The translations under genes were made by a program, and so were the position numbers. The notes under the pieces were generated by a model. That model saw only the letters and a list, made by a program, of their open reading frames with translations. It was not told the origin of the DNA and searched no databases. Shown piece after piece: positions 1 to 32,909 of a stretch of DNA of 33,484 nucleotides. This DNA comes from a virus: the IMG/VR virus record IMGVR_UViG_3300029957_000027, positions 1-33,484 of that record. The stretch is one strand, 5' to 3'. How positions within the stretch are numbered: position 1 is the stretch's first letter; each line of letters begins with the position of its first letter.

Positions 1-72
1 GTCCGGGTACGGGTACGGGTACGGGTACGGGGACGGGTACGGGGACGGGTACGGGTCCGGGTACGGGGACGA
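1..72 (+). repeat. Degenerate GGGTAC/GGGGAC hexamer tandem repeat
   Basis: About a dozen copies of a six-base unit, mostly GGGTAC with GGGGAC and GGGTCC variants, run from the window edge to about position 72. Read in the frame of the gene that continues to 337, each unit encodes Gly-Tyr, Gly-Asp or Gly-Ser. The unit length keeps the frame, so copy number can change without breaking the protein. The array is cut by the window edge and its full length is unknown. Confidence 0.9.
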
Positions 73-337
73 TCTAGTTCGTTGCACTCCGGTCGCATCG
101 CTCGTAACGAAGAACGACCTCCACGCAAAGAGCGCCTGCGCCGATCAACTGAAGCTGTTCATCAAGACGTTTCCCGACGGGTGCAACTGGCCCACGGACG
201 CACAGAGGGCGAGGGACATCGGCCTTGACGTGAACTGGGCGCGAACAAACCTCGGGCTGTTGTTCCCCGTCGGCGTTGAGTTCAAATCCGCTCGCCGCAC
301 GGCACCCCCAGAGAGCGGGGAGGGCGGGGAAAAGTGA
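2..337 (+). CDS. C-terminal part of a Gly-Tyr/Gly-Asp repeat protein
   Basis: An open frame enters from the left edge and stops with TGA at 335-337. It encodes a low-complexity Gly-Tyr/Gly-Asp stretch of about 24 residues, then about 87 residues of ordinary sequence with two cysteines (RCTP, SACAD) and a charged tail rich in Gly and Glu. The N-terminus lies outside the window. Similar Gly-Tyr-Gly-Asp runs occur in uncharacterised phage proteins, but I do not know a function. The stop overlaps the GTG of the methyltransferase gene (GTGA at 334-337), so the two are probably co-translated. The frame choice rests on that overlap and on absence of stops. Confidence 0.7.
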   Translation, partial: SGYGYGYGYGDGYGDGYGSGYGDDLVRCTPVASLVTKNDLHAKSACADQLKLFIKTFPDGCNWPTDAQRARDIGLDVNWARTNLGLLFPVGVEFKSARRTAPPESGEGGEK

Positions 338-1071
338 GGAGCGTGGAGCTTGGGTGTGGTAACGCCGGGATGCTGTCTCTGCCAGAGGGCTCGGCTGGCC
401 TCATTCTGTCCGACCTGCCGTCAGGGGAAACGCAGGCCGACTTCGACAAACAGGTGGACCTCTTCGACTTCTGGCGCGCTGCATGGGCATGCCTTCGGCC
501 GAGGGGAGCGGCGGTCCTGTTCGCATCGTCGCTCAAGTTTGCCGCAACGCTTCGGTCGTCGTCGGACGCGTTTCGCTACGACATGGTTTGGGCCAAGACG
601 CTGGCAACGGGGCACCTCAACGCCAGCCACCGGCCGCTTCGCGCCCACGAATTCATCCTGGTTTTCTTCCGCACACGAGGCGTATACAACCCGCAGATGT
701 CCGCTGGGCACGGGCCGATCCACCGGGCGCGGCGAGTGAGCCACGGGGAGAATTACGGCAAGTTCACGCGCGCGACGGACAGCCGCGCTGGCGCGACGGA
801 CAGATTCCCGACCTCGGTGCTCAACTTTGCGAGCGTCGGCACCAGCAGCAAGTCGCGAAAACATCCACAGCAGAAGCCGGTCCCATTGCTGCGCTGGCTG
901 ATTCGAACCTTCTCGGCGCCCGGGGACCTCGTTGTCGACCCATTCGCCGGGAGCGGAAGCTGCGGAGACGCCGCTGCAGCCGAAGGTCGAGATTGGCGCG
1001 GCTGGGATTCGTCCCCCCGGTTCGCCCGCCCCACCCCAGAGCCCACCCCCGGGAAGGAGCCGACGACGTGA
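334..1071 (+). CDS. Beta-class DNA methyltransferase (N4-cytosine or N6-adenine)
   Basis: A 245-residue protein with the layout of a beta-class amino-methyltransferase: the catalytic motif comes first (SDLPSG, residues 26-31, a variant of DPPY), a target-recognition stretch follows (about 90-175), then HPQQKP (177-182) and the AdoMet-binding motif DPFAGSGS (202-209). It would transfer a methyl group from AdoMet to an exocyclic amino group of DNA. Family knowledge does not decide between N4-C and N6-A. The Ser in place of Tyr in the catalytic motif is unusual; DLPYG is the common phage variant. The GTG start overlaps the upstream stop by four bases, and its own TGA overlaps the next GTG. No restriction enzyme lies beside it, so an anti-restriction or regulatory role is more likely than a restriction-modification pair. 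Confidence 0.85.
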   Translation: MRSVELGCGNAGMLSLPEGSAGLILSDLPSGETQADFDKQVDLFDFWRAAWACLRPRGAAVLFASSLKFAATLRSSSDAFRYDMVWAKTLATGHLNASHRPLRAHEFILVFFRTRGVYNPQMSAGHGPIHRARRVSHGENYGKFTRATDSRAGATDRFPTSVLNFASVGTSSKSRKHPQQKPVPLLRWLIRTFSAPGDLVVDPFAGSGSCGDAAAAEGRDWRGWDSSPRFARPTPEPTPGKEPTT

Positions 1072-1250
1072 CTGAGTTGATCGCAGCGGCGGCAATCTAC
1101 TGGGCCTATTCGTTTCATGAGCACCACGGGGGCGCCAGGGGGGATGAAGTGATGAGCTGCCCATACTGTGGCTGCGCGTCGCCCCTTGGCTCTCATTTCG
1201 TTTGGTGTGCTCGCCCCGCGGGCGCTCCTACACCAGGAGGGGAGCGCTAG
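1068..1250 (+). CDS. Small zinc-ribbon protein
   Basis: A 60-residue protein with CPYCGC followed about 15 residues later by WCARP, a four-cysteine arrangement typical of a small zinc ribbon. The GTG start at 1068 sits in a GTGA overlap with the methyltransferase stop; an internal ATG at 1152 is an alternative that would keep only the ribbon. Its stop at 1250 abuts the next start at 1251. Function unknown; such phage ribbons may bind nucleic acid or a host protein. Confidence 0.6.
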   Translation: MTELIAAAAIYWAYSFHEHHGGARGDEVMSCPYCGCASPLGSHFVWCARPAGAPTPGGER

Positions 1251-1688
1251 GTGGCTGATCTCAGCCTCCAGCGATCATTCCGGGTCCCGGTCCCCGTCGA
1301 GCCCGAGGACGAAAACGCCAAGCAGCAGGTGGCCCGCGAGGCGACCAAGGTGGCGTCCCGCCAGTCCCCCCACGGCTACGAGCTCTTCGGGCCAGACGGT
1401 CGCATCTCCCCTTGGATCCTGACCTGGGACCGGATGTCCCCGGAGGCTCGAGCTACGGCGGCCGGGCTGGCGCTGGACCTTCGGTTCAGGCTCGACACCC
1501 GGATCCTCTACTTCGACGAACGCACCAGGATTGTGTTCGCGGTCCAGCCCGATCCAAACGTCGAGGGAGTTAGAAAGGGGACGGGGAGGCCGGTGGCGAA
1601 GACGGTCGAGGAGGCGGTGGTGCGCGCGTCGGCAGGGCACGGCGAGGCTGGCGCGGCGATCCGGCAGTTCATCAAGCGCCGGAAATAG
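1251..1688 (+). CDS. Hypothetical phage protein
   Basis: A 145-residue protein starting with GTG directly after the previous stop, with a good Shine-Dalgarno (AGGAGGGG, about 1235-1242) inside the upstream gene. The middle (residues 48-105) looks like a compact alpha/beta unit and the tail is basic. I do not recognise a family. It is the last gene before a promoter-like box at 1695-1708 and so probably ends the transcript entering from the left. Confidence 0.65.
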   Translation: MADLSLQRSFRVPVPVEPEDENAKQQVAREATKVASRQSPHGYELFGPDGRISPWILTWDRMSPEARATAAGLALDLRFRLDTRILYFDERTRIVFAVQPDPNVEGVRKGTGRPVAKTVEEAVVRASAGHGEAGAAIRQFIKRRK

Positions 1689-1694
1689 CACCCA

Positions 1695-1708
1695 CCCGCG
1701 TAGTATCT
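1695..1708 (+). promoter_or_regulatory. CCCGCGTAGTATCT promoter box, leaderless geometry
   Basis: Exact 14-base box. TAGTAT (1701-1706) sits 7 nt before the ATG at 1714, where a -10 element would place the transcription start at or near the A of the start codon. No -35-like TTGAC sequence is visible 15-19 nt upstream. The same box recurs at 7570 and 18039, with close variants at 14346, 30891 and, on the minus strand, 6679-6692. Confidence 0.7.
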
Positions 1709-1713
1709 CAGGC

Positions 1714-1986
1714 ATGACCGACATGACCACGAAGGGAAAGGGGCGCGGCTTCGCCGGGATGGACCCCGAGAAACGACGGCAGATCTCCTCCGCTGGCGGG
1801 AAGGCCGCGCACGAGAAGGGGACGGCGCACGAGTGGGATTCGTCGGACGCCCAGCATGCGGGGCGGAAGGTCGGCGCCGTCTCCGGTGCTCGGCGGCGCT
1901 CGGCGGGAAAGATCGCCATTCAGACCACGGGCCACATCGGTGATCGGCCGAGCCTCGGGTCCGAACTGATAGATAGGGGGCGCTGA
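1714..1986 (+). CDS. KGG-motif (YciG/Con-10-like) small basic protein
   Basis: A 90-residue protein with repeats typical of the KGG stress-protein family: RGFAGMDPEKRR, a GGKAAHEKGTAHEW segment, then AGRKVG. Bacterial relatives are general stress proteins of unclear mechanism, usually very hydrophilic and basic. The start is set by the promoter box 7 nt upstream and by family resemblance beginning just inside it; a longer upstream extension in the same frame is overlap with the previous gene. The stop overlaps the next start (TGATG). Confidence 0.75.
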   Translation: MTDMTTKGKGRGFAGMDPEKRRQISSAGGKAAHEKGTAHEWDSSDAQHAGRKVGAVSGARRRSAGKIAIQTTGHIGDRPSLGSELIDRGR

Positions 1987-2216
1987 TGGCCGAGAGTACC
2001 GAGTTGACGATTCATATTTGCGGCCGAGGCCAGCCTTCGGCAGAATGCAGCGAAAGCGGATGCCGAACGCGAGCCAGCGGGAAGTGCAGCGTACCCCTCA
2101 GGGGGCGGAAAGAGGGGCAGACCTGCGACCGCCAGCTCTGCAAGAAGTGCGGTGGCAAGCAGATGATCTGCCCGCCGCACCAGCGCTTGGCCGAGAAGCG
2201 AGCGGTCCGGTCGTAG
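1986..2216 (+). CDS. Cys-rich zinc-binding phage protein
   Basis: A 76-residue protein with at least seven cysteines. Its ending, CDRQLCKKCGGKQMICPPH, matches the first half of the protein at 15756-16403 (CSAKLCTGCR, then CPPHARL). Both share the order Cys pair, a CD/CS-x-x-LC-x-x-C knuckle, then CPPH followed by a basic helix. Zinc binding is inferred from the Cys/His spacing. The gene is joined to the KGG gene by a TGATG overlap. In the 15756 protein the module continues in frame into another domain; here the frame stops at 2216 and a DUF3850-like domain follows in another frame. Confidence 0.7.
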   Translation: MAESTELTIHICGRGQPSAECSESGCRTRASGKCSVPLRGRKEGQTCDRQLCKKCGGKQMICPPHQRLAEKRAVRS

Positions 2217-2554
2217 CGGCCGCCCCCGAAATCAAGACCCACATCCTCAAGGCCTACCCGGGTCCGTTCCGCGCGGTGAAGCGGGGCAGGAAGCGCTTCG
2301 AGTTCCGGCTCGACGACCGCGGGTTCCGCGAGGGTCACCGGCTCCGCCTGCGCGAGTGGAACCCAGAGGATCGGAAGTACACCGGGGACGAGCTACTCCT
2401 CGAGATCCTCCAGCTCTCCCGCGGCCCCGACTGGAACATCCCCCGGGGCTACGTGATCATGTCGGTCGCCCCGATCATGGTCGAGGCCGAGGTGAAGGGG
2501 AATGTGACCGAGAGCCGGCGCCGGCGCGACGGGCTGGGTACCGCCGCTCTGTAG
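2147..2554 (+). CDS. DUF3850 / ASCH-PUA-like domain protein, start uncertain
   Basis: The recognisable domain runs from about 2232: KTHILKAYPGPFRAV, RKRFEFRLDDRGF, a basic strand with LREW, YTGDEL, and IPRGYVIMSV. This is the pattern of the DUF3850 family, an ASCH/PUA-like beta barrel expected to bind RNA or modified nucleotides. No ATG, GTG or TTG lies near the domain start. The nearest in-frame candidate is the GTG at 2147, which adds about 28 residues overlapping the Cys-rich gene. A frameshifted product with that gene is an alternative. The tail after about 2500 is basic and low in complexity. Confidence 0.7.
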   Translation: MRWQADDLPAAPALGREASGPVVAAAPEIKTHILKAYPGPFRAVKRGRKRFEFRLDDRGFREGHRLRLREWNPEDRKYTGDELLLEILQLSRGPDWNIPRGYVIMSVAPIMVEAEVKGNVTESRRRRDGLGTAAL

Positions 2555-2570
2555 CGGGACCCCCGCTCGC

Positions 2571-2599
2571 TTGACGGACGGGCTCGCGGCCCCGATCCT
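2571..2599 (+). promoter_or_regulatory. Promoter with -35 TTGACG, -10 GATCCT, leaderless geometry
   Basis: TTGACG (2571-2576), a 17-nt spacer and GATCCT (2594-2599) lie just after the preceding stop and 6 nt before the ATG at 2606. The -35 is near the bacterial sigma-70 consensus and the spacer is ideal; the -10 is weak. It would drive the tail module. Confidence 0.65.
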
Positions 2600-6715: not shown

Positions 6716-7558
6716 ATGCGCTCCGCCGCCGTCGCCCAACGCCACCAGATCCTCGTCAACCAGGCCCGCGCCGCCTATCGGCTATCGGTCCTTCGGGCGC
6801 GGGAGAGTTTGGCCGACTTCATCGAGCTCTGCGGGCGGGACGAGGACGGCAACCGGATCCAGCTCCACTTCCTCCACCGCTGCTGGATCTGGCACGTCAA
6901 TTACGCCTGGAGCCGGGGGAAGCACGCGATGATCATGGCGCCCTTCAACTCTGGAAAGACGAGCTCGCTCGCCATCCCGATCGCGGCCTTCCTCATCGGC
7001 CAGAACGTCCAGAACCGGATCAAGATCGTCTGCGCCGGCGACGGCAACGCGAAGCTCCGCCTGGCGGCGGTCAAGAGCATGATCGAGTCGTACGAATACC
7101 GATCGGTGTTCCCCCACGTCCGGCCCGGCCAGAAGTGGGACACGACGGAGGCGTTCGTCGCTCGAGAGGGCAACGCCGTCGATCCGACCCTCCACGCTCG
7201 GGGGGTGCTCACCGAGGGCATCGGCGGTCGCGCGGACGTGGTGCTCTTCGACGACGTCTGCACCCAGAAGAACAGCGAGCAGGAGGCGAACCGCCACAAG
7301 ATCACGAAGTTTGGGCGCGGCACCTGGCTCTCCCGCCTCGACGGCGACGCCGCGCGCGCGATGGCCTTCGCCACCCCGTGGGCCCAGGACGACTTCTCGG
7401 CCGACCTCAAGAACGACCCAAACTGGGTGACCCTGGTCCAGCGGGTGCGAGTGCCGGACCTCGGGGCCTACGAGCAGGAGGTCTTCGGCGCCGGCTCCGA
7501 CTACGCCGAGCTCTTCGCCGACTTTATCGACAGCATCGGCGCGAGAATGGCCGCCTGA
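6716..7558 (+). CDS. Large terminase, ATPase domain only
   Basis: A 280-residue protein corresponding to the N-terminal motor half of a phage large terminase, which powers DNA translocation into the prohead. Visible: LHFLHRCWIWH (50-60, region before the P-loop), Walker A APFNSGKTS (75-83), Walker B VVLFDDV (175-181, with Asp179/Asp180), and the coupling-type motif FATPWAQDD (218-226). Family members are normally 450-600 residues with an RNase H-like nuclease domain after the motor. Here the frame ends after VRVPDLGAYEQ and a short helical tail with no nuclease motifs. The missing half matches the gene at 22840-23592. The sequence after the stop carries a new promoter and gene, so a simple local frameshift is unlikely. 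Confidence 0.85.
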   Translation: MRSAAVAQRHQILVNQARAAYRLSVLRARESLADFIELCGRDEDGNRIQLHFLHRCWIWHVNYAWSRGKHAMIMAPFNSGKTSSLAIPIAAFLIGQNVQNRIKIVCAGDGNAKLRLAAVKSMIESYEYRSVFPHVRPGQKWDTTEAFVAREGNAVDPTLHARGVLTEGIGGRADVVLFDDVCTQKNSEQEANRHKITKFGRGTWLSRLDGDAARAMAFATPWAQDDFSADLKNDPNWVTLVQRVRVPDLGAYEQEVFGAGSDYAELFADFIDSIGARMAA

Positions 7559-20677: not shown

Positions 20678-21379
20678 ATGGCCGCACGGGAATTCATCGA
20701 CAGAACCGGACAGCGCGTTGGCCGGTTGCTGGTGCTCACCAGGACTGGCGTCGCCGGTCGATGGCGTTGTCGCTGCGACTGCGGTCGCGAGACCGTGCGG
20801 CGTGGCTGCGATCTCACCAATGGACATACGAAGTCGTGCGGCTGCCTGAAAACTGGAGTCAAGCGCCAGGCCGTCGTTGATGGCGATGTCGTGCGCATCG
20901 CATTGACGCGCGGGTTATTCGCGACGGTCGATCTGGTCGACGCCGATCTGCAGCTGTTCAACTGGGCGGCGCATCGAGGGAAGAAGACCTGGTACGCGAT
21001 CCGGAGCATCGAACGCGGCCCACGCGGAGCGAGCAAGAAGACGTGTTTCCTTCTTCATCGCGTGATCGCGGAACGCGCGGGATATGCGATCGACGGGATC
21101 GAGTTCGACCATCACGACGGTGACGGACTCAATTGCCGCCGGCTGAACCTGAGGCCGGCCTCAGACGAGCAGAACGCGCAGAACTGCCGCAAGCGCAGCG
21201 ACAACACGAGCGGGGTCAAGGGCGTTCACTGGGACACCGCGCGCCGCAAATGGGTCGCCCAGATCGTGGCCTCGGGCAAGTACCACACACTCGGGAGGTT
21301 CGAGAGCAAGGGCGTTGCCGCCAGCGCATATGCCGTCGCTGCCAAGGAACTACACGGAGACTTCGCGAGGACCGAATGA
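20678..21379 (+). CDS. HNH endonuclease with AP2 DNA-binding domain
   Basis: A 233-residue homing-type endonuclease. The N-terminal module (MAAREFIDRTGQRVGRL, then CRCDCG and SCGCL, residues 1-57) is a zinc-binding unit often fused to these enzymes. The HNH core has LLHRVI (125-130), DHHDGDGLNCRRLNLRP (144-160) and NCRKRSDNTSG. The C-terminal AP2 domain (178-232) shows SGVKGVHWD, KWVAQI, GKYHTLGRF and AASAYAVAAKELHGDFA. It would nick or cut DNA at a recognised site and may be mobile. It lies just before the SOD/peptidase and terminase nuclease genes. Confidence 0.9.
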   Translation: MAAREFIDRTGQRVGRLLVLTRTGVAGRWRCRCDCGRETVRRGCDLTNGHTKSCGCLKTGVKRQAVVDGDVVRIALTRGLFATVDLVDADLQLFNWAAHRGKKTWYAIRSIERGPRGASKKTCFLLHRVIAERAGYAIDGIEFDHHDGDGLNCRRLNLRPASDEQNAQNCRKRSDNTSGVKGVHWDTARRKWVAQIVASGKYHTLGRFESKGVAASAYAVAAKELHGDFARTE

Positions 21380-22836
21380 CGCGGACGGGTTCATGGACGA
21401 CCGGGAAGAAAAAGAGGATCGAGCCGATCGCTGTCGGTGCTCTCAGCTTTCCTAACCTGGCGCAAGGACTCGTTGGGGTGAGCGACAAAACGTTGCAGGA
21501 CCACCTGACCCTCTACCAGGGCTACGTGGCCGAGCTCGCCGCCCTCGACGCGGCCCGCGCGCAGCCGACGCGCTTCCCGCCGTCCATCCCATCGGGCGAG
21601 CTCGCCGCCCTCCTGGCCTCCCCCGTGCGCGATCTGGCGCTCACCGTGAACGACGGCCAGCTCGGGGAGGCGGTCGCCCAGGTCGAGGGGGAGCTGACCG
21701 CGCGCGGGATCGTGTGGCGGCCGCTCTGGTACATCGGCGAGCCCGACTTCTGGACGACCGACCAGGCGACCTCGATCAACCTCCCCTGGTACTTGGCGAG
21801 CGATCGGATCTGGGAGCTCGTGAACGAGCAGGACCAGCGCTACACGCGGGAGGAGGTGGTCTCGATCCTGCGGCACGAGGTCGGTCACGCGCTCGGCTAC
21901 GCCTTCGAGATCTGGCGGGACGGCTACTGGAAGCGGACCTTCGGCGACTTCTTCGCCCCCTACCTCGACGAGTACACCCCCGACCCCACCAGCACCGACT
22001 ACGTGCGCCACCTCCACGGGATGGTCTCGGCGGCCAACGCCCACTACGCCCAGAAGCACGCGGACGAGGACTGGGCCGAGACCTTCGCGACCTGGCTCGA
22101 TCCCGGCTCCCGCTGGCGCGAGGAGTACGCCGAATGGCCCGGCGCGCTGGCGAAGCTCGAGACGGTGGAGACGCTCCTCTCGAGCTGGGGACGGGCCTAT
22201 GGGCCGCCGGTCAACACCATGGTCGGGCGCCGCGTGCCGTACACGACGCTCGACTACACGGTCGGCGAGTACCTCGGGGTGAAGGCTGGCCCCGACCCAG
22301 CCGAGGCGCTCCTGCGGCGGGCGCCAACCGTTTACGACGCGGTGGTCCTGCACGAGCTGTTCTTCGGCGGGCTCGCGCGCGGCGCCGGCGTCGCTGGCCC
22401 TGGGCCCGCCTTCACCGCCGCAGTCGGGCCCGGCGGCTTCGACGGCTGGTGGGCGGACTTCCGCGCCGTCGCGCGCGCGTCGACTGGCTGGGCGCTGGCG
22501 GTCTGGGACGCTCGGGCGGGGCGCGTGCGCAACGTCCTGGTCGACGGCCACGCGAACGGCGTCCCGGCTGGCTGCCAGGTCCTGGTGGCGCTCGACTGCT
22601 TCGACCACGCCTTCGCTGGCGACGTGGGGATCCGCAAGGACGTCTATGTCGCGAGCTGGGCGCGGAACGTGAACTGGGGCCTCGTCGACCTCCGCGTGCT
22701 GCAGGCGGCGCCGGGCTTCGGGCTCACGCTCCCGGTCCCGCCGCTCTCCACGCCAGCGCTCGTTCCGACGGTGAGTCTGGTCCTGCCCCTTCGCACGGAA
22801 GACCCGACCGTCGAAGACCAGGAGCCGCTGGTCTAA
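21376..22836 (+). CDS. SOD-like / zinc metallopeptidase chimera
   Basis: A 486-residue protein starting at ATG 21376 (ATGA overlap). Residues 31-60 (GLVGVSDKTLQDHLTLYQGY) resemble the first helix of Fe/Mn superoxide dismutases, with His43 as the candidate ligand. Residues 110-245 carry a zinc metallopeptidase signature: SILRHEVGHALGYAFE (His167, Glu168, His171) and DEDWAETFATW (Glu235 as third ligand). Residues 318-440 match the rest of a Fe/Mn SOD: VVLHELFFGGL (His326), GFDGWWADFRA, GWALAVWD, LDCFDHAF (Asp407, His411) and WARNVNW. So three canonical SOD ligands remain, and the peptidase sits where the SOD helical hairpin turns. Location before the terminase nuclease suggests a virion or assembly role. 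Activity of either half is unproven. Confidence 0.75.
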   Translation: MTRTGSWTTGKKKRIEPIAVGALSFPNLAQGLVGVSDKTLQDHLTLYQGYVAELAALDAARAQPTRFPPSIPSGELAALLASPVRDLALTVNDGQLGEAVAQVEGELTARGIVWRPLWYIGEPDFWTTDQATSINLPWYLASDRIWELVNEQDQRYTREEVVSILRHEVGHALGYAFEIWRDGYWKRTFGDFFAPYLDEYTPDPTSTDYVRHLHGMVSAANAHYAQKHADEDWAETFATWLDPGSRWREEYAEWPGALAKLETVETLLSSWGRAYGPPVNTMVGRRVPYTTLDYTVGEYLGVKAGPDPAEALLRRAPTVYDAVVLHELFFGGLARGAGVAGPGPAFTAAVGPGGFDGWWADFRAVARASTGWALAVWDARAGRVRNVLVDGHANGVPAGCQVLVALDCFDHAFAGDVGIRKDVYVASWARNVNWGLVDLRVLQAAPGFGLTLPVPPLSTPALVPTVSLVLPLRTEDPTVEDQEPLV

Positions 22837-22839
22837 TCG

Positions 22840-23592
22840 GTGGCGAACTTCGGCATCCCGCTCCCGGCGATCCCCATCTGGCCGGTCAAGCACAGCTTGG
22901 AAAAGCTGCGCGAGGTCCAGAGCGATCCCTTCACCTTCAGCCACGGGTACCGGCTTGAGGCCGTCACCCCCGGCGAGCGGAAGTTCCCCAGCTTCGAGAA
23001 GTGCGTCCAGACCGGGTTGATGGCCGCCGAGCTCGCCGCGCGCCGCATGCCGGTGTACGTGGGGGTGGACCTCGCGGGGAAGAAGCGGAAGGGCAACGCG
23101 ATCTTCGCGCTGGGGCTCGACGCCAACCTTCGCCGCTGCCCGGTCGAGATCCGCTGCGGCCATTGGACGTCCCCCGACACGGCCCGCAACCTGGCCGAGG
23201 TGGTGCAGAACCACGACGTCCGCTTCATCCAGGTCGAGAACAACGGGTACCAGCAGGCGCTGATCGATTGGGTGAAGGAGAGCAAGTACGACTTCTGGAT
23301 GAAGATCGAGTCGTTCACCACCGGCTCGAACAAGACGGACCCCGACGTGGGTCTGCCGGCGCTGGAGGTCGAGTTCTTCAACGAGGGGTGGATCATCCCG
23401 GGCGGGGAGTTCGAGGGGCACCCGCCGGCGTGCGCCTGCGATTGGTGCAGGTTCCGCGACGAGTTCGTGAACTACCCGAAGGGGACCAGCACCGACGTCG
23501 TCATGGCCGCCTGGATCTGCCGCGATGCCGCCTCGAAGTGGGCGCCCAAGCGGTCGACGCCGTTCAAGGGTCGGAACTTCAGCAGGCGGTGA
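22840..23592 (+). CDS. Large terminase, nuclease (RNase H-like) domain only
   Basis: A 250-residue protein starting at GTG 22840, 3 nt after the previous stop. Residues 11-45 (IPIWPVKHSLEKLREV; DPFTFSHGYRLEA) look like the hinge between terminase motor and nuclease. Then YVGVDLAGK (73-81, Asp77), FIQVENNGYQQAL (129-141, Glu133) and GTSTDVVMAAWI (215-226, Asp219) form the acidic triad of the terminase RNase H-like nuclease, which would cut concatemers and genome ends. There is no Walker motif. A Cys cluster (CACDWC, 198-203) is an odd insertion. It complements the ATPase-only gene at 6716-7558. Confidence 0.8.
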   Translation: MANFGIPLPAIPIWPVKHSLEKLREVQSDPFTFSHGYRLEAVTPGERKFPSFEKCVQTGLMAAELAARRMPVYVGVDLAGKKRKGNAIFALGLDANLRRCPVEIRCGHWTSPDTARNLAEVVQNHDVRFIQVENNGYQQALIDWVKESKYDFWMKIESFTTGSNKTDPDVGLPALEVEFFNEGWIIPGGEFEGHPPACACDWCRFRDEFVNYPKGTSTDVVMAAWICRDAASKWAPKRSTPFKGRNFSRR

Positions 23593-23617: not shown

Positions 23618-23896
23618 ATGCCCAAGCCGCGCGCCGTCGACGTGATCGAGATCGAACGGGCCGACGTCGGTCCCCTGAAGCAGCTGGCCAACGTGGCGAT
23701 CAAGCTGCGGCTCGGGGGAGCGCGGAGGGGCTACGTGTTCACCATGACGAGATCGGCGTACGAGGCGAAGACGCCGGACCTTCGGATGCGGGAGGCGCAG
23801 GCGCTGGGGAACCTGGTGCACCCCCACCCGTGCACGCTGATCATCATGCCGGACGAGGCGCCGGACCTTCGCGCCTACCAGATCGTGGCGAAGTGA
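23618..23896 (+). CDS. Hypothetical small protein
   Basis: A 92-residue protein with a beta/alpha look (VDVIEIERADVGPLKQLANV; RGYVFTMTRSAYEAKTPDLR). The start is set by the TAGCAT box 8 nt upstream. Its stop overlaps the GTG of the ParB-methyltransferase gene. No family recognised. Confidence 0.6.
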   Translation: MPKPRAVDVIEIERADVGPLKQLANVAIKLRLGGARRGYVFTMTRSAYEAKTPDLRMREAQALGNLVHPHPCTLIIMPDEAPDLRAYQIVAK

Positions 23897-25461
23897 GCGC
23901 GCGGAAGAAGAAGGCGGCGGGGCCAGCGCTGGCGCCGCTTCCGGTGGTCGATGGGCCGCGCCGCCAGAGGATCCAATACATGGACCTCGACGAGCTGCTG
24001 AAGCGGAAGCACCCCGACAACAGCAAGCTCCACGACCAGGCGCTGATCGAGGAGATGATCGCCGACAACGGCTTCGTCTCGCCGCCGCTCCTCGATGAGC
24101 GGTCCGGGCTCCTCGCGTTCGGCCACGGCCGGCTCGACCAGCTGGCGGCGATGAAGGCGGCGGGCGCGCCGGTGCCAGAAGGTGTCGAGGATCTCGACGG
24201 GGCCTGGATGGTTCCGGTGATCCTGGGCGTCAGCTTCGCCAGCGACGAGGCCCTGCTGAAGTACCTCGTCGGCGACAACCGAGCGGTCGAGAAGGGCGGC
24301 TGGGACAACAAGAAACTGGTCGAGGCGCTGTCGCGGATCGGGAAGGAGAACCTGCGGGCGACGGGGTTCGCGTCCTCGGACCTGGTGACCTTCCTGGCGC
24401 GGCTGAAGAACACCGAGCCGCGCGGGCGGGGAGACGCAGAGGCGGTCCCCGATCTCCCGAAGCGGTCGGTCACCAAGCCGGGGCAGCTCTGGCAGCAGAC
24501 GCTCGTCATGATCCACGCCGATCCACCCTACGGAATGGGGAAGGAGGCCGAGGGAATCGAGAACGACAACCTCTACGAGGCGAAGCTCGACGCCTTTCAG
24601 AACGAGTGGTGGGCGGCCTGGCGCAAGCACCTCTCGGAGGTCGGCAGCTCCTACGTCTGGGGGAACGCCCCGGACCTCTGGCGGTGGTGGTGGCGGCACC
24701 TCGAAGCTGCTGGTGGGCTCGTCATGCGGAACGAGATCGTCTGGGAGAAGGGCCACGGCCACGGAGAACGGACCGCCTCGGCCCATTCGTACCCGCCGGC
24801 GTCGGAGCGCTGTCTCCTCTTCATGCTCGGCGGCCAGCAGTTCCTCGGCAACCAAAACCAGGACGACTACTCCGCCGGCTACGAGCCGCTGCGCGCGTGG
24901 ATGGAGGCGGAGCGCGACAAGGCCGGCTGGGACAACCCGGCGATCAACCGGCTGACGAAGACGAAGATGGCGAGCCACTGGTTCACGCGCTCCCAGTTCA
25001 TGCCGATCAGCGAAGGACACTACGAGGCATTGCAGAAGGCGACGAAGCCGTCCGGCATCCCCTCCTTCGTCGAGAGCTACGGCGCGATCTCGAAGCGATT
25101 CTCGAAGTCGTTCAAGCACCGGCGCGAGCTGACCGCCGCCCTCCGCGAGACCCGCAGCTACTTCGACAACACCCACGACGCGATGACGGACGTGTGGAGC
25201 TTCCCTCGCGTGGTCGGAGAGGAGCGCTTCGATCACGCCACGCCCAAGCCGGTCGCGCTGGTCGCGCGCGCCATCAAGACGAGCGCCCCGCCGGGCGCTG
25301 CGGTCGGCGTCCCCTTCGCCGGCACGGGCCCAGAGTTCGTGGCGGCCGAGCAGTGGGAGCGGCGCGCGTTCGGGGTCGAGATCACCCCGGCCTATTGCGA
25401 CGTAATTGTTCAGCGCTGGCAGGATTTTTCAGGAGGCCGCGCGAAGAAGCTGGCAGGCTGA
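23893..25461 (+). CDS. ParB-like / DNA methyltransferase fusion
   Basis: A 522-residue protein. Residues about 25-125 are a ParB/sulfiredoxin-like domain (PDNSKLHDQALIEEM, then a Leu-rich stretch and FGHGRLDQLAAM), common at the front of phage methyltransferases. The methyltransferase carries DPPYGMG (210-216), EIVWEKG (281-287), a long target-recognition region, TPKPVALV (450-457) and VGVPFAGTG (471-479). Two oddities: the AdoMet motif has Val where DPF normally has Asp, and the usual segment between PGQLW and DPPYG is shortened to about ten residues. Either could lower activity. It starts at GTG 23893 in a GTGA overlap. Confidence 0.8.
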   Translation: MSARKKKAAGPALAPLPVVDGPRRQRIQYMDLDELLKRKHPDNSKLHDQALIEEMIADNGFVSPPLLDERSGLLAFGHGRLDQLAAMKAAGAPVPEGVEDLDGAWMVPVILGVSFASDEALLKYLVGDNRAVEKGGWDNKKLVEALSRIGKENLRATGFASSDLVTFLARLKNTEPRGRGDAEAVPDLPKRSVTKPGQLWQQTLVMIHADPPYGMGKEAEGIENDNLYEAKLDAFQNEWWAAWRKHLSEVGSSYVWGNAPDLWRWWWRHLEAAGGLVMRNEIVWEKGHGHGERTASAHSYPPASERCLLFMLGGQQFLGNQNQDDYSAGYEPLRAWMEAERDKAGWDNPAINRLTKTKMASHWFTRSQFMPISEGHYEALQKATKPSGIPSFVESYGAISKRFSKSFKHRRELTAALRETRSYFDNTHDAMTDVWSFPRVVGEERFDHATPKPVALVARAIKTSAPPGAAVGVPFAGTGPEFVAAEQWERRAFGVEITPAYCDVIVQRWQDFSGGRAKKLAG

Positions 25462-26911: not shown

Positions 26912-28690
26912 GTGGCCGCAACGACGATCAAGGGCGCCCCAGCGCCGACAGCGTTCGTCCCCACCGACCAGCAGGTGGTGCAGCTCCTCCAGCAGCGGGC
27001 GGTCTTCGACGTCACCGAGCGTTACGCGAGGCTCGACCGGAAGGAAGCCTTCGCCCGCGCACTCGAGTACGACCACCAGAAGACCGACTGGTGGGGGGAC
27101 CGCGCCGACGCGCTGGAAACGATCTCGCCCGAGGTTCTCTTCCCCGCCGGCACCCAGCCGAGCGGCGGCGAGTCGCCGAAGAAGACCGCGCGCGAGAAGC
27201 GCCCGACCGCCCCCACCCGGAAGGCGAAGACCACCACCCAGCGCTTCACTGACATGCTCTTCAGCTCCCAGCGAATCCCCAAGGTGAAGGTCGAGCAGGA
27301 CGCGGACACCGAGGACTACCTGGACGCGGTCAGGGAGGCGGGCCGCTTCTGGCGATCGATGCGGATCGCCCGCAACAAGGGCGGCGGCATGGGCTCGGTC
27401 ATGATGACCGTCCACGTCGTCGAGAGCCGCTGGGTCTTCGAGGTCCACAACGCCAAGTACGTCGCGGTGAAGATCTGGAAGGACAAGCGCAACTGGAGCC
27501 TCCGCGGCGTGCTGCTCATGTATCGGACGCTCCGCACGGAGCCCGGCGCTGACGACGACGGCAAGCCCGACGGGAGCATCCGCCAGGTCGAGTACCTGGT
27601 CCGTCGGATCATCACGGAGAACGACGACATCCGGTACACCGAGATCACGGTCGACGCCGCCAAGGCGGACCCGGCGAACGCATGGACGATCGATCCCCAG
27701 CTCTCCCTGCACCACGGGCTCGGCGTCTTCCCCGGCACCTGGATCCAGAACATCGCCGATGAGGAGGACGAGGACGGCGGCGGCGCCGACTGCGAGGGGG
27801 CCTTCGAGACGATCGACACGAACGACCGCCTGATCTCTCAGGCGAACTACGCCACCCTCGCCAACTGCGATCCCACCGTCATCACCTCGACGGATCCCCA
27901 CGTAGTCGACGGCAATGGGGCGATGGTGAAGGGATCCGACTTCGCGATGGAGGTCGGCCTCCAGGGCTCGGCCCGGTACATGGAGATGACCGGGTCTGGC
28001 ATCGAGATGGCGCTCAAGGTCTCCGACAAGCTGGAGAGCCAGATCGACGAGATCACCGGCGCCGTCTTCCCCGACGACCAGGACATCGCCAACAGCCAGA
28101 GCGCCAAGGCGATCGAGCTCCGCTATGCCCCGATGATCTCCCGCTGCGACGACCTCCGCGGCCAGTATGGGGACGCGATCGTCGAGGTGATGAAGATCGT
28201 GGTGCTCATCGGGAAGAAGGCCGAGGCCCCGGTGCAGCTCCCGGACGGCGAGGACGGGCAGACGCGGATCGGGAAGTTCAAGCTGGACATGCCGATGCGC
28301 CGCGCGCCCGCAGCAGACGGCCAAGCCACCGACGAGCTCGTACCCCAGAAGCTCGGCGCCGGCGGGTACATGAGCCTCAAGTGGGGGCCCTACTTCCCCC
28401 CCACCGAGAACGACATCAAGGACATGATCCAGAACAGCACCGCGGCGAACGCCTCGCGGCTCATCACCCAGGTGACGGCCGCCACCCGCGTGGCTCCCCT
28501 CTTCGGCGTGACCGACGTGGAGGCAGAGGTGGCCGGCGCCAACGCCGAGAGCCAGGAGCAGGCGGAGCGAGCGCTGGCCGGGTTCGAGGGCGGCGTAAAA
28601 ATGGAGCGCACCGTCGTCGAGGGGACGCAGTCGGAGCAGGACGGGGACGGCCAGAACAGCCCCGGCGCCGGCCAGGGCGGCCAGCCGTGA
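26912..28690 (+). CDS. Phage portal protein (SPP1 gp6-like)
   Basis: A 592-residue protein with the features of a portal, the dodecameric ring through which DNA is packaged. A helical N-terminus and a basic linker (about 75-110) precede RFTDMLFSSQRIPKV, a wing-type alpha/beta region (about 150-290), then ETIDTNDRLISQANYATLA, IEMALKVSDKLESQIDEITG and ANSQSAKAIELRYAPM, which resemble the crown and stem helices of SPP1-type portals. The C-terminus is a disordered Gly/Gln tail. It starts at GTG 26912, and the stop overlaps the next GTG. It lies about 3 kb after the terminase nuclease gene, the usual order. Confidence 0.8.
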   Translation: MAATTIKGAPAPTAFVPTDQQVVQLLQQRAVFDVTERYARLDRKEAFARALEYDHQKTDWWGDRADALETISPEVLFPAGTQPSGGESPKKTAREKRPTAPTRKAKTTTQRFTDMLFSSQRIPKVKVEQDADTEDYLDAVREAGRFWRSMRIARNKGGGMGSVMMTVHVVESRWVFEVHNAKYVAVKIWKDKRNWSLRGVLLMYRTLRTEPGADDDGKPDGSIRQVEYLVRRIITENDDIRYTEITVDAAKADPANAWTIDPQLSLHHGLGVFPGTWIQNIADEEDEDGGGADCEGAFETIDTNDRLISQANYATLANCDPTVITSTDPHVVDGNGAMVKGSDFAMEVGLQGSARYMEMTGSGIEMALKVSDKLESQIDEITGAVFPDDQDIANSQSAKAIELRYAPMISRCDDLRGQYGDAIVEVMKIVVLIGKKAEAPVQLPDGEDGQTRIGKFKLDMPMRRAPAADGQATDELVPQKLGAGGYMSLKWGPYFPPTENDIKDMIQNSTAANASRLITQVTAATRVAPLFGVTDVEAEVAGANAESQEQAERALAGFEGGVKMERTVVEGTQSEQDGDGQNSPGAGQGGQP

Positions 28691-31976: not shown

Positions 31977-32909
31977 GTGGCCGTCAGCCCGCTCATCCGC
32001 GAGATCGTGGCGCTCCACCGCGCCCAGCTGGCCGGCATCATCGAGGTCCGCGGCGTCGGGCGCCTGCGCGGCATCTACGCCTCCTCCCGGACCGAGCTCG
32101 AAGACCGCCTCGCCTCCCTCAAGCGGGACGGCAAGGGCCAGACCTTCGCCGCCGTCCACCTGCAGCTGGTGCTCGCCCAGGTCGTCGAGGCCCTCCGCAA
32201 CTTCGAAGCCCCCTTCCGCGAGCACCTCCACCAGACGGGGCAGCTCGCCGGGGTAGTGGCGCCGCGCCAGGTGGCGCAGATGATCGGCAGGGTCGAGACG
32301 GCCCGCGGCGCCATGACCCCCGTCATCGCTGCCGAGCAGGCTGCGGTGGTCCGCGGCGTCTACCCCAGCGTCGCCCCCACGCTCCTCCAGCGCTACCGCG
32401 ACAGCGCCAAGCGCTACGGGCCCCAGGCGCTCCTGTCCATCCGTGACGGGCTCTCCCGGTCCCTGGTGCAGGGGGAGACGGTGGACCAGGCGGTCGACCG
32501 ACTGGTGAAGGCGGGAGGGACGTTCGATGGGCAGCGTTGGCGGGCAGAGAGGGTATGCAGGACCGAGCTCTCGCACGCAGCCGGGGTGACGACGCAGAGA
32601 GCGATGGAGGGCTTTCGGATGTCCATGCCGAAGCTACTCAAGCGCTGGGTCGAGACGCGGGACGATCGGGAGGGGGACGACTCCAAGGATCTGGACGGCC
32701 AGACGGTGCCGGTCGACCAACCGTTCGTGTGGGTCGTGAAGGATTCGAAGGGGCGCCCGACCGGCAAGATCGTCCGAATGATGCAAGGACCAAACAGACC
32801 AAACGACAGAAGCCTCTGCATTCCCTGGCAATCGGCGTGGGGCAACCCGGAGACGGTGGCACCGGCGGGCCCCGTGAAACCCACGACAAGAGGACTGGCG
32901 TCCTCGTGA
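31977..32909 (+). CDS. Mu gpF-like minor head / head morphogenesis protein
   Basis: A 310-residue protein. A helical N-terminal half (1-180) precedes the Mu F-type domain: RAERVCRTELSHAAG (189-203, with the conserved Arg-Thr-Glu), KRWVETRDDREGDD (222-235), LDGQTVPVDQPFVW (239-252) and RPNDRSLCIPW (274-284). Such minor head proteins bind the portal/prohead and act in head assembly or DNA ejection. It starts at GTG 31977, 6 nt after the -10 box. It follows the portal by about 3 kb of small genes, a wider gap than usual. Confidence 0.8.
   Translation: MAVSPLIREIVALHRAQLAGIIEVRGVGRLRGIYASSRTELEDRLASLKRDGKGQTFAAVHLQLVLAQVVEALRNFEAPFREHLHQTGQLAGVVAPRQVAQMIGRVETARGAMTPVIAAEQAAVVRGVYPSVAPTLLQRYRDSAKRYGPQALLSIRDGLSRSLVQGETVDQAVDRLVKAGGTFDGQRWRAERVCRTELSHAAGVTTQRAMEGFRMSMPKLLKRWVETRDDREGDDSKDLDGQTVPVDQPFVWVVKDSKGRPTGKIVRMMQGPNRPNDRSLCIPWQSAWGNPETVAPAGPVKPTTRGLASS

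Follow-up and report, generated by a model that had tools for sequence, protein, structure and literature searches.

Fe/Mn superoxide dismutases (SODs; PF00081/PF02777) and zinc metallopeptidases are both known enzymes, and domain nesting is a known habit of proteins; among the papers listed in the literature searches, as judged from titles and the openings of abstracts, we found no description of an SOD that hosts a peptidase. Among phage proteins, the main text of PMC5512222 describes the polyvalent proteins as likely packaged in the capsid, with zincin peptidases as their commonest domain, which peptidases are also fused to ADP-ribosyltransferase (ART) domains and are proposed to process or to accompany effectors; the words superoxide and dismutase are absent from that main text. 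The MuF toxins of temperate phages, according to the available text of PMC5576092, carry variable C-termini and lie near portal and terminase genes.

The window analyzed here—the whole stretch of 33,484 nucleotides of the IMG/VR record IMGVR_UViG_3300029957_000027—encodes a 486-residue protein whose sequence reads as Fe/Mn-SOD helix 1, an HExxH…E peptidase, and then SOD helix 2 with the C-terminal SOD domain (Table 1). With the Fe/Mn SODs, among which the bacterial L101 and L102 are the closest, it shares the predicted whole fold, the four metal ligands, the spacing of the helix 1 motif, the second-shell His, and, in the window protein, the Tyr gate; it differs from them in having an enzyme of about 250 residues in place of the helix 1–helix 2 turn, and in the alteration of ligands in 3 of 14 family members. 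Peptidase_Mx (PF15887) and its standalone chromosomal relatives have in common with the phage protein the HExxH and YAQKHPDEDWAETFA-like motifs, and the seven best bacterial copies are 46–52% identical to it; the chromosomal copies that were read, however, stand alone at some 320–370 aa, end in a different C-terminus, and lack an SOD, whereas the phage copy is nested. The likeness to the polyvalent proteins, as far as the main text of that study describes them, lies in the zincin-type motif of a phage protein, an ART-like domain in one member, and the packaging-gene context; but the domains are in tandem there and nested here, and 11 of the 14 members have no added domain. The MuF polymorphic toxins, as presented in the available text, resemble the family in the variable C-terminal regions of some members and in the proximity to portal and terminase, whereas the MuF-like protein of this phage is a separate one. 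We rejected membership in the MuF group, no Phage_Mu_F match being present in the window protein or in the 8 members of A2.

What emerges is, apparently, one enzyme nested by nature inside another: a pair of unrelated metalloenzymes that a lineage of uncultured phages has kept. Both predicted folds would survive the nesting, as would, to judge from the residues conserved, both active sites in most members. The arrangement constitutes a natural test of the tolerance of the SOD fold to insertion, brings an SOD into an apparent phage packaging or effector setting, and gives an uncharacterized metallopeptidase family a testable biological context.

The two SOD segments and the family that carries them

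The ATG at 21376, which overlaps by 4 bases with the end of an upstream HNH/AP2 ORF, is an inferred start; the reading frame stays open 5' of it, back to a TTG at 21133.

Table 1. Features of the fusion gene and of the packaging genes in the window, with the basis for each assignment.
Feature	Coordinates	Strand	Basis
Nested SOD/metallopeptidase gene, 486 aa	21376..22836	+	ORF and translation
SOD helix 1 segment, residues 21–62	21436..21561	+	L102 alignment, HMM test, two models
His43 codon, predicted first SOD metal ligand	21502..21504	+	Invariant in 14/14; His–Tyr spacing of L101 and L102
Inserted zinc metallopeptidase domain and linkers, residues 63–305, borders approximate	21562..22290	+	Peptidase_Mx, bacterial copies
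HEVGH zinc-binding motif, residues 167–171	21874..21888	+	H167, E168, and H171 in 14/14
DEDWAE motif with Glu235, likely third zinc ligand	22063..22080	+	E235 in 14/14
SOD helix 2 and C-terminal alpha/beta SOD domain, residues 306–446	22291..22713	+	L102 alignment, Sod_Fe_C, family profile
His326 codon, SOD ligand	22351..22353	+	14/14
Asp407 codon, SOD ligand	22594..22596	+	13/14, Cys in L114
His411 codon, SOD ligand	22606..22608	+	12/14, Asp in L128 and L129
C-terminal tail, short and variable, with stop codon	22714..22836	+	Extended here in L110, L111, and L112 by ~390–550 residues
Terminase large subunit, nuclease half; conserved downstream neighbor	22840..23592	+	phrog_38, 2e-14, profile 483–700
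Portal protein	26912..28690	+	SPP1_portal, 5e-7
Separate MuF-like minor head protein	31977..32909	+	Phage_Mu_F, 5.3e-6, just below cut-off

The Pfam family Sod_Fe_C matched residues 353–438 of the window protein at 8.2e-10, over its cut-off, and also matched all 8 members of A2 as well as L110, L111, L112, and L114, to which members the scan extended, with L128 and L129 outside it. The best solved relative was the Aquifex Fe-SOD 1coj, recovered by phmmer with the window protein at 1.1e-13 over residues 320–445 and by the family profile at 4.6e-24; a second collinear stretch, of residues 30–57 against SOD residues 14–42, was weak and alone not significant. When the uninterrupted bacterial SOD L102 was aligned with the window protein, its residues 1–35 fell on residues 18–53 (44% identity, E 1.1e-5) and its residues 55–191 on residues 306–441 (35%, 7e-23), these being two-sequence E-values. 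Both segments are thus collinear with L102, so that approximately 19 residues of the helix 1–helix 2 turn appear to have been replaced by about 250. The sequence-only reading had depended on a link of residues 318–440 to SOD, which link the searches do make, residues 306–441 matching SODs.

The motif DHLTLYQGYV of the phage protein reads NHFTLYQGYV in the standalone bacterial SODs L101 and L102. The spacing from His43 to Tyr50 is one residue below that of the Aquifex SOD and identical to that of L101 and L102, which common spacing, along with the invariance of His43 in all 14 members, indicates that this residue is the likely fourth SOD ligand, as had been suggested; the other three ligands named in the sequence-only reading (His326, Asp407, and His411) were present in the window protein in the alignment of the 14 members. 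An HMM of SOD helix 1 was built from L101, L102, and L103, picked after the resemblance had been noticed, and was run against 3,712 decoy ORFs, read from stop to stop in all six frames of L016–L095 with a minimum length of 100 aa: 11 of the 14 members outranked every decoy with a match at the N-terminus, while L009, L015, and L114 did not stand out. The reverse tests used 8 SODs, a ninth SOD locus (L104) being left out. There the C-terminal HMM of the family recovered 8 of 8, and the family helix 1 HMM placed two above every decoy—L102 and L101 came first—with L103 among the decoys and the other five outside the top 14.

The identical protein (100%) occurs in two other IMG/VR contigs, L001 and L002, and IMG/VR contains 13 further distinct members at ~39–85% identity to the window protein. 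The 14 distinct members are the window protein, L003, L009, L010, L011, L012, L014, L015, L110, L111, L112, L114, L128, and L129; repeats were left out, namely L004 (on the contig of L015), L008 (as L003), L013 (protein equal to that of L014), and L113 (equal to that of L112), and L119, where a contig end lies inside the gene and the SOD half alone is visible, was not counted. The order of SOD helix 1, peptidase, and SOD helix 2 with the C-domain is common to all 14, and its recurrence in the 13 further members argues against an assembly artefact; an assembly chimera was ruled out by those members together with the identical proteins.

At the limits used, the INPHARED phages included no relative of the window protein (P0001) or of P0002. 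A search of viral contigs for standalone SODs of the L102 type, whose query reaches close relatives only, returned 12 pattern matches and 0 relatives, and when the SOD halves of six members served as queries, 15 loci were returned—12 already known, the fusions L128 and L129, and L119—with no standalone SOD among them. Plasmids gave 41 matching records, the 20 matches listed covering the SOD part only, and SOD-like sequences were present in 27 phage-collection records, a few of which were named as bacterial strains and many of which were unannotated. As a separate observation, L003 (93–170) and L009 (5929–6000) start with a short basic motif, ASxxQRRxxxxxxPxxA, which is absent from the N-terminus of the window protein.

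Predicted fold and conservation of the two active sites

A first AlphaFold2 model, obtained from A3 (8 family rows and 17 bacterial peptidase segments, with no SOD), had a pLDDT of 71.5 and a weak SOD part, with Z values of 9.5–10.5 to SODs among the 50 matches listed and a best Foldseek E of 1.4e-3. That model was superseded by a second, from A5 (14 family cores and 17 peptidase segments, likewise with no SOD), in which model residue 1 is protein residue 17 and for which the pLDDT was 89.7 and the pTM 0.58, the latter being low enough to render the placement of the peptidase relative to the SOD uncertain. Helix 1 spans residues 37–61/62 in the two models. In VIA-align the second model matched 1coj with a Z of 24.2 over 195 residues at 2.5 Å and the Fe-SOD of M. 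tuberculosis with a Z of 24.0 over 191 of 198 residues at 2.0 Å; all 50 matches listed were SODs, with Z values of 22.4–24.2 and alignments from chain start to chain end, and the SOD structures were covered over 191–195 residues of chains of 198–211 residues at 1.9–2.5 Å. The best Foldseek E was 4.2e-8. Since the SODs were matched over the whole chain, helix 1 is predicted to dock at the SOD helix 1 site, and the two-domain SOD fold, including the N-terminal helix hairpin, is complete in the predicted model. The earlier suggestion that the fold could still close is therefore upheld in the prediction, where whole SOD structures are matched at Z 24 and helix 1 is placed inside the SOD fold, contrary to a packing on the peptidase only. 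Because SODs are included among the structures on which AlphaFold2 was trained, the second model is not wholly independent evidence.

The collinearity with L102, the HMM test, and this model together back the description of the chain as SOD helix 1, metallopeptidase, and SOD second half with which the sequence-only reading had begun, and its siting of the peptidase at the turn of the SOD helical hairpin agrees with both the L102 comparison and the prediction. A fold search in BFVD gave as its best match A0A6J5L953 (E 1.2e-3, 143 columns), a phage protein of 501 residues annotated as superoxide dismutase; judged by that annotation and the fold match, it is possibly a relative, or else an earlier unrecognized record of something similar.

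The HExxH and the distal Glu of the peptidase were present in every member, and Glu235 is the likely third zinc ligand, to go by the gluzincin pattern. Two of the SOD ligands were equally invariant and the other two were replaced in L114, L128, and L129 (Table 1), so that the set of His, His, Asp, and His, as sequence positions, is held by 11 of the 14 members, the window protein included, and is kept down to ~40% identity. Tyr50 is retained in 4 of 14 members, and His392, which aligns with a His of L101 and L102 at what is presumably the second-shell site (Gln or His in SODs), in 6 of 14. In the window protein the four SOD ligands, Tyr50, His392, and the full peptidase motif are found together. 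The Fe/Mn site thus likely works in the four-ligand members, such as that of the window, and is altered in some branches, if the aligned residues are a guide.

A side observation concerns L114 (5959–7389), L128, and L129, in which residues that could also bind metal stand in for SOD ligands (Cys for Asp in the former, Asp for His in the latter two), which swaps hint at a changed metal preference.

The dN/dS ratios of the three close pairs, in the order peptidase, SOD C-domain, and helix 1, were 0.11, 0.30, and 0.44 for P0001–L003; 0.11, 0.08, and 0.05 for L012–L014; and 0.05, 0.11, and 0.08 for L128–L129—that is, 0.05–0.30 for the peptidase and SOD C-domain and 0.05–0.44 for helix 1 (n = 3). 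Two more distant pairs were less clear, with 0.55, 0.55, and 0.30 for P0001–L009 and 0.51, 0.90, and 1.02 for L010–L015. The short C-terminal tail looked unconstrained in P0001–L003 (1.71, over 28 codons).

The peptidase and its chromosomal relatives

Peptidase_Mx matched residues 162–241 of the window protein at 5.1e-4, under the cut-off (20 bits, versus the 27 needed); the gathering score was reached by L110, L111, and L114, and not by L112. A sequence search of the PDB found no solved relative of the peptidase, the best E, of 0.17, being a chance match to a ribosomal protein. A search of bacterial genome contigs matched 97 loci, of which 80 were kept; the seven best standalone peptidases were 46–52% identical over residues ~51–315 of the window protein, and four of these seven were labeled Myxococcales or Myxococcota. 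In 20 bacterial loci, 19 ORFs were readable, each of which encoded a standalone peptidase of ~320–370 residues from the start of the match, with no SOD half visible by eye in any of the 19, as Pfam confirmed for L016. The phylum of G008, the Myxococcales MAG that contains L016, gave matches in 157 of 235 genomes; at no more than 7 candidates scored per genome, the matches listed included none with peptidase and SOD together, each covering one part. Within the matches listed, then, the fusion was not seen in chromosomes, the bacterial matches being of either peptidase or SOD only.

A peptidase tree that combined 14 phage sequences with 56 bacterial ones, the latter being those gene-called among the 80 loci, placed the phage peptidases on one side of a weakly supported branch (77/94), and their neighbors were four bacterial rows—three labeled Myxococcales—in a joint group at 80/99; the tree tool issued a long-branch warning. 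A Myxococcota link of the peptidase, and also of the host, is thus suggestive.

We also observed that the standalone chromosomal peptidase (e.g., L023 1920–2900) often adjoins an opposite-strand gene for an ATP-grasp protein like D-Ala–D-Ala ligase, which gene lay within 300 bp in 14 of the 16 loci where both were called, the L023 copy being assigned by Pfam.

Gene neighborhood and possible roles

The position of the fusion gene beside the terminase nuclease gene, which had been pointed out from the window, recurred widely: 13 of the 14 members have a nuclease-half gene in the same orientation downstream of the fusion gene, at distances from immediate adjacency to ~4 kb; the exception is L111, near whose fusion gene none was found. 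Within the flanks available, a conserved small gene follows the fusion gene in 9 of 14 members and the portal gene does so in 5 of 14. The contig G001 encodes a MuF-like protein and a major head protein; the MuF-like protein of the window also matches phrog_2468 (head morphogenesis, 9.5e-12), and a family that bears the name head maturation protease matches the MuF protein at 8.7e-5. A scan of 10 G001 proteins encoded from MuF to the tail genes showed no clear prohead protease, and one of the 10 had a weak peptidase-family match (0.027).

Long C-terminal extensions are found in L110, L111, and L112, all after a common RMAG(K/R)E motif, the remaining 11 of the 14 members being without one. That of L110 is a DRAT-type ADP-ribosyltransferase (Pfam, 9.4e-8, over the cut-off); that of L111 has, by eye, a HEAMH motif, a second HExxH, and no Pfam match; and that of L112 is PI3/4-kinase-like (8.6e-5, under the Pfam cut-off). 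PADLOC found nothing for P0001, L110, or L111; the kinase-like region of L112 gave it weak matches to candidate models. Gene context and these extensions, in 3 of 14 members, are a suggestion of a virion or assembly role.

We are close to certain, on the alignments and the predicted model, that a zinc metallopeptidase was inserted—probably once, the support in the tree for a single insertion being weak (77/94)—in the helix 1–helix 2 turn of an Fe/Mn SOD, and that the fold closes, which closure would leave two metal sites on one chain. The insert would be a peptidase related to the standalone chromosomal enzymes, with its closest known copies in Myxococcota-type genomes. That the similarity arose by chance or the gene by misassembly is practically negligible as an explanation: helix 1 is indeed short on its own, and only 2 of 8 SODs outranked the decoys in the reverse test; yet the identical protein stands in two other records, the order is common to 13 further distinct members, and the predicted structure matches SODs at Z 24. 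The reading that we favor as a whole—a peptidase nested in an SOD, in a protein of early infection that is probably carried in the virion—is on balance probable. The peptidase would be the activity that every member needs, its motif never varying while the SOD ligands do; the SOD would be a redox-capable, compact frame that probably dimerizes. It is about an even chance that the protein is made with the head and packaging genes, is virion-carried or early-acting, and is functionally a polyvalent protein whose peptidase may release or accompany C-terminal regions. The ADP-ribosyltransferase-like, kinase-like, or second HExxH region of the few members that have one may be the part so released or accompanied, and SOD activity might protect the infecting DNA or the cell, or might tune the peptidase.

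The protein might instead stay outside the virion as a bifunctional enzyme in which an auxiliary phage SOD shields the infected cell from superoxide and the peptidase is a tethered helper, for which the four ligands, Tyr50, and His392 of the window protein speak, as do the SOD-like sequences of the phage collection; but the conserved position in a packaging module, the alteration of SOD ligands in 3 of 14 members against a peptidase motif that never changes, and the effector-like C-terminal regions of three members make this reading somewhat unlikely. Those altered ligands (D407C in L114; H411D in L128 and L129) would fit an SOD that is dead or a metal-binding scaffold, the protein then being a dimerized, metal-stabilized peptidase, and so would the lack of Tyr50 in 10 and of His392 in 8 of the 14 members and a C-domain less constrained than the peptidase (0.30 vs. 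0.11 in P0001–L003, 0.90 vs. 0.51 in L010–L015). The retention of four ligands in 11 of 14 members, down to ~40% identity, and the low C-domain ratios of L012–L014 (0.08) and L128–L129 (0.11) nevertheless render a dead scaffold unlikely. We consider it improbable that a virion-injected bifunctional enzyme has its nested peptidase gated by the metal or redox site of the SOD, with the oxidative state of the host triggering the cutting of host targets or the release of an effector. Finally, a metallopeptidase encoded near terminase and portal could process capsid or scaffold proteins during assembly, a clear prohead protease being absent among the 10 G001 proteins scanned from MuF to the tail genes. 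Only those 10 were scanned, however, with one weak peptidase-family match among them; the MuF protein itself matches the head maturation protease family; and the SOD and the extensions would be left unexplained, so that this role is very unlikely. To our knowledge, the known prohead proteases are serine-type, which also counts against it.

Further features of the locus deserve mention. The terminase large subunit is apparently split, with an ATPase gene at 6716–7558 and the nuclease gene ~15 kb apart from it, the phrog_38 profile being matched over positions 252–471 in the former and 483–700 in the latter; relatives in the family likewise have separate terminase nuclease-half genes. The alignment of G001 (87,737 bp) with the window falls into two segments, 99.99 and 100% identical, that share 126 bp (window 1–2580, L105–L109), and from this overlap G001 is probably a complete genome, circularly permuted or terminally redundant. 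Between terminase and portal, at 23893–25461 of the window, a DNA N6/N4 methyltransferase occurs in fusion with a ParB-like domain. In L010 (2692–5989) and L015 (2271–6010) the fusion gene is immediately preceded by what we take to be QueC, FolE, QueD, QueE, and DpdA-like genes, suggesting a 7-deazaguanine DNA modification.
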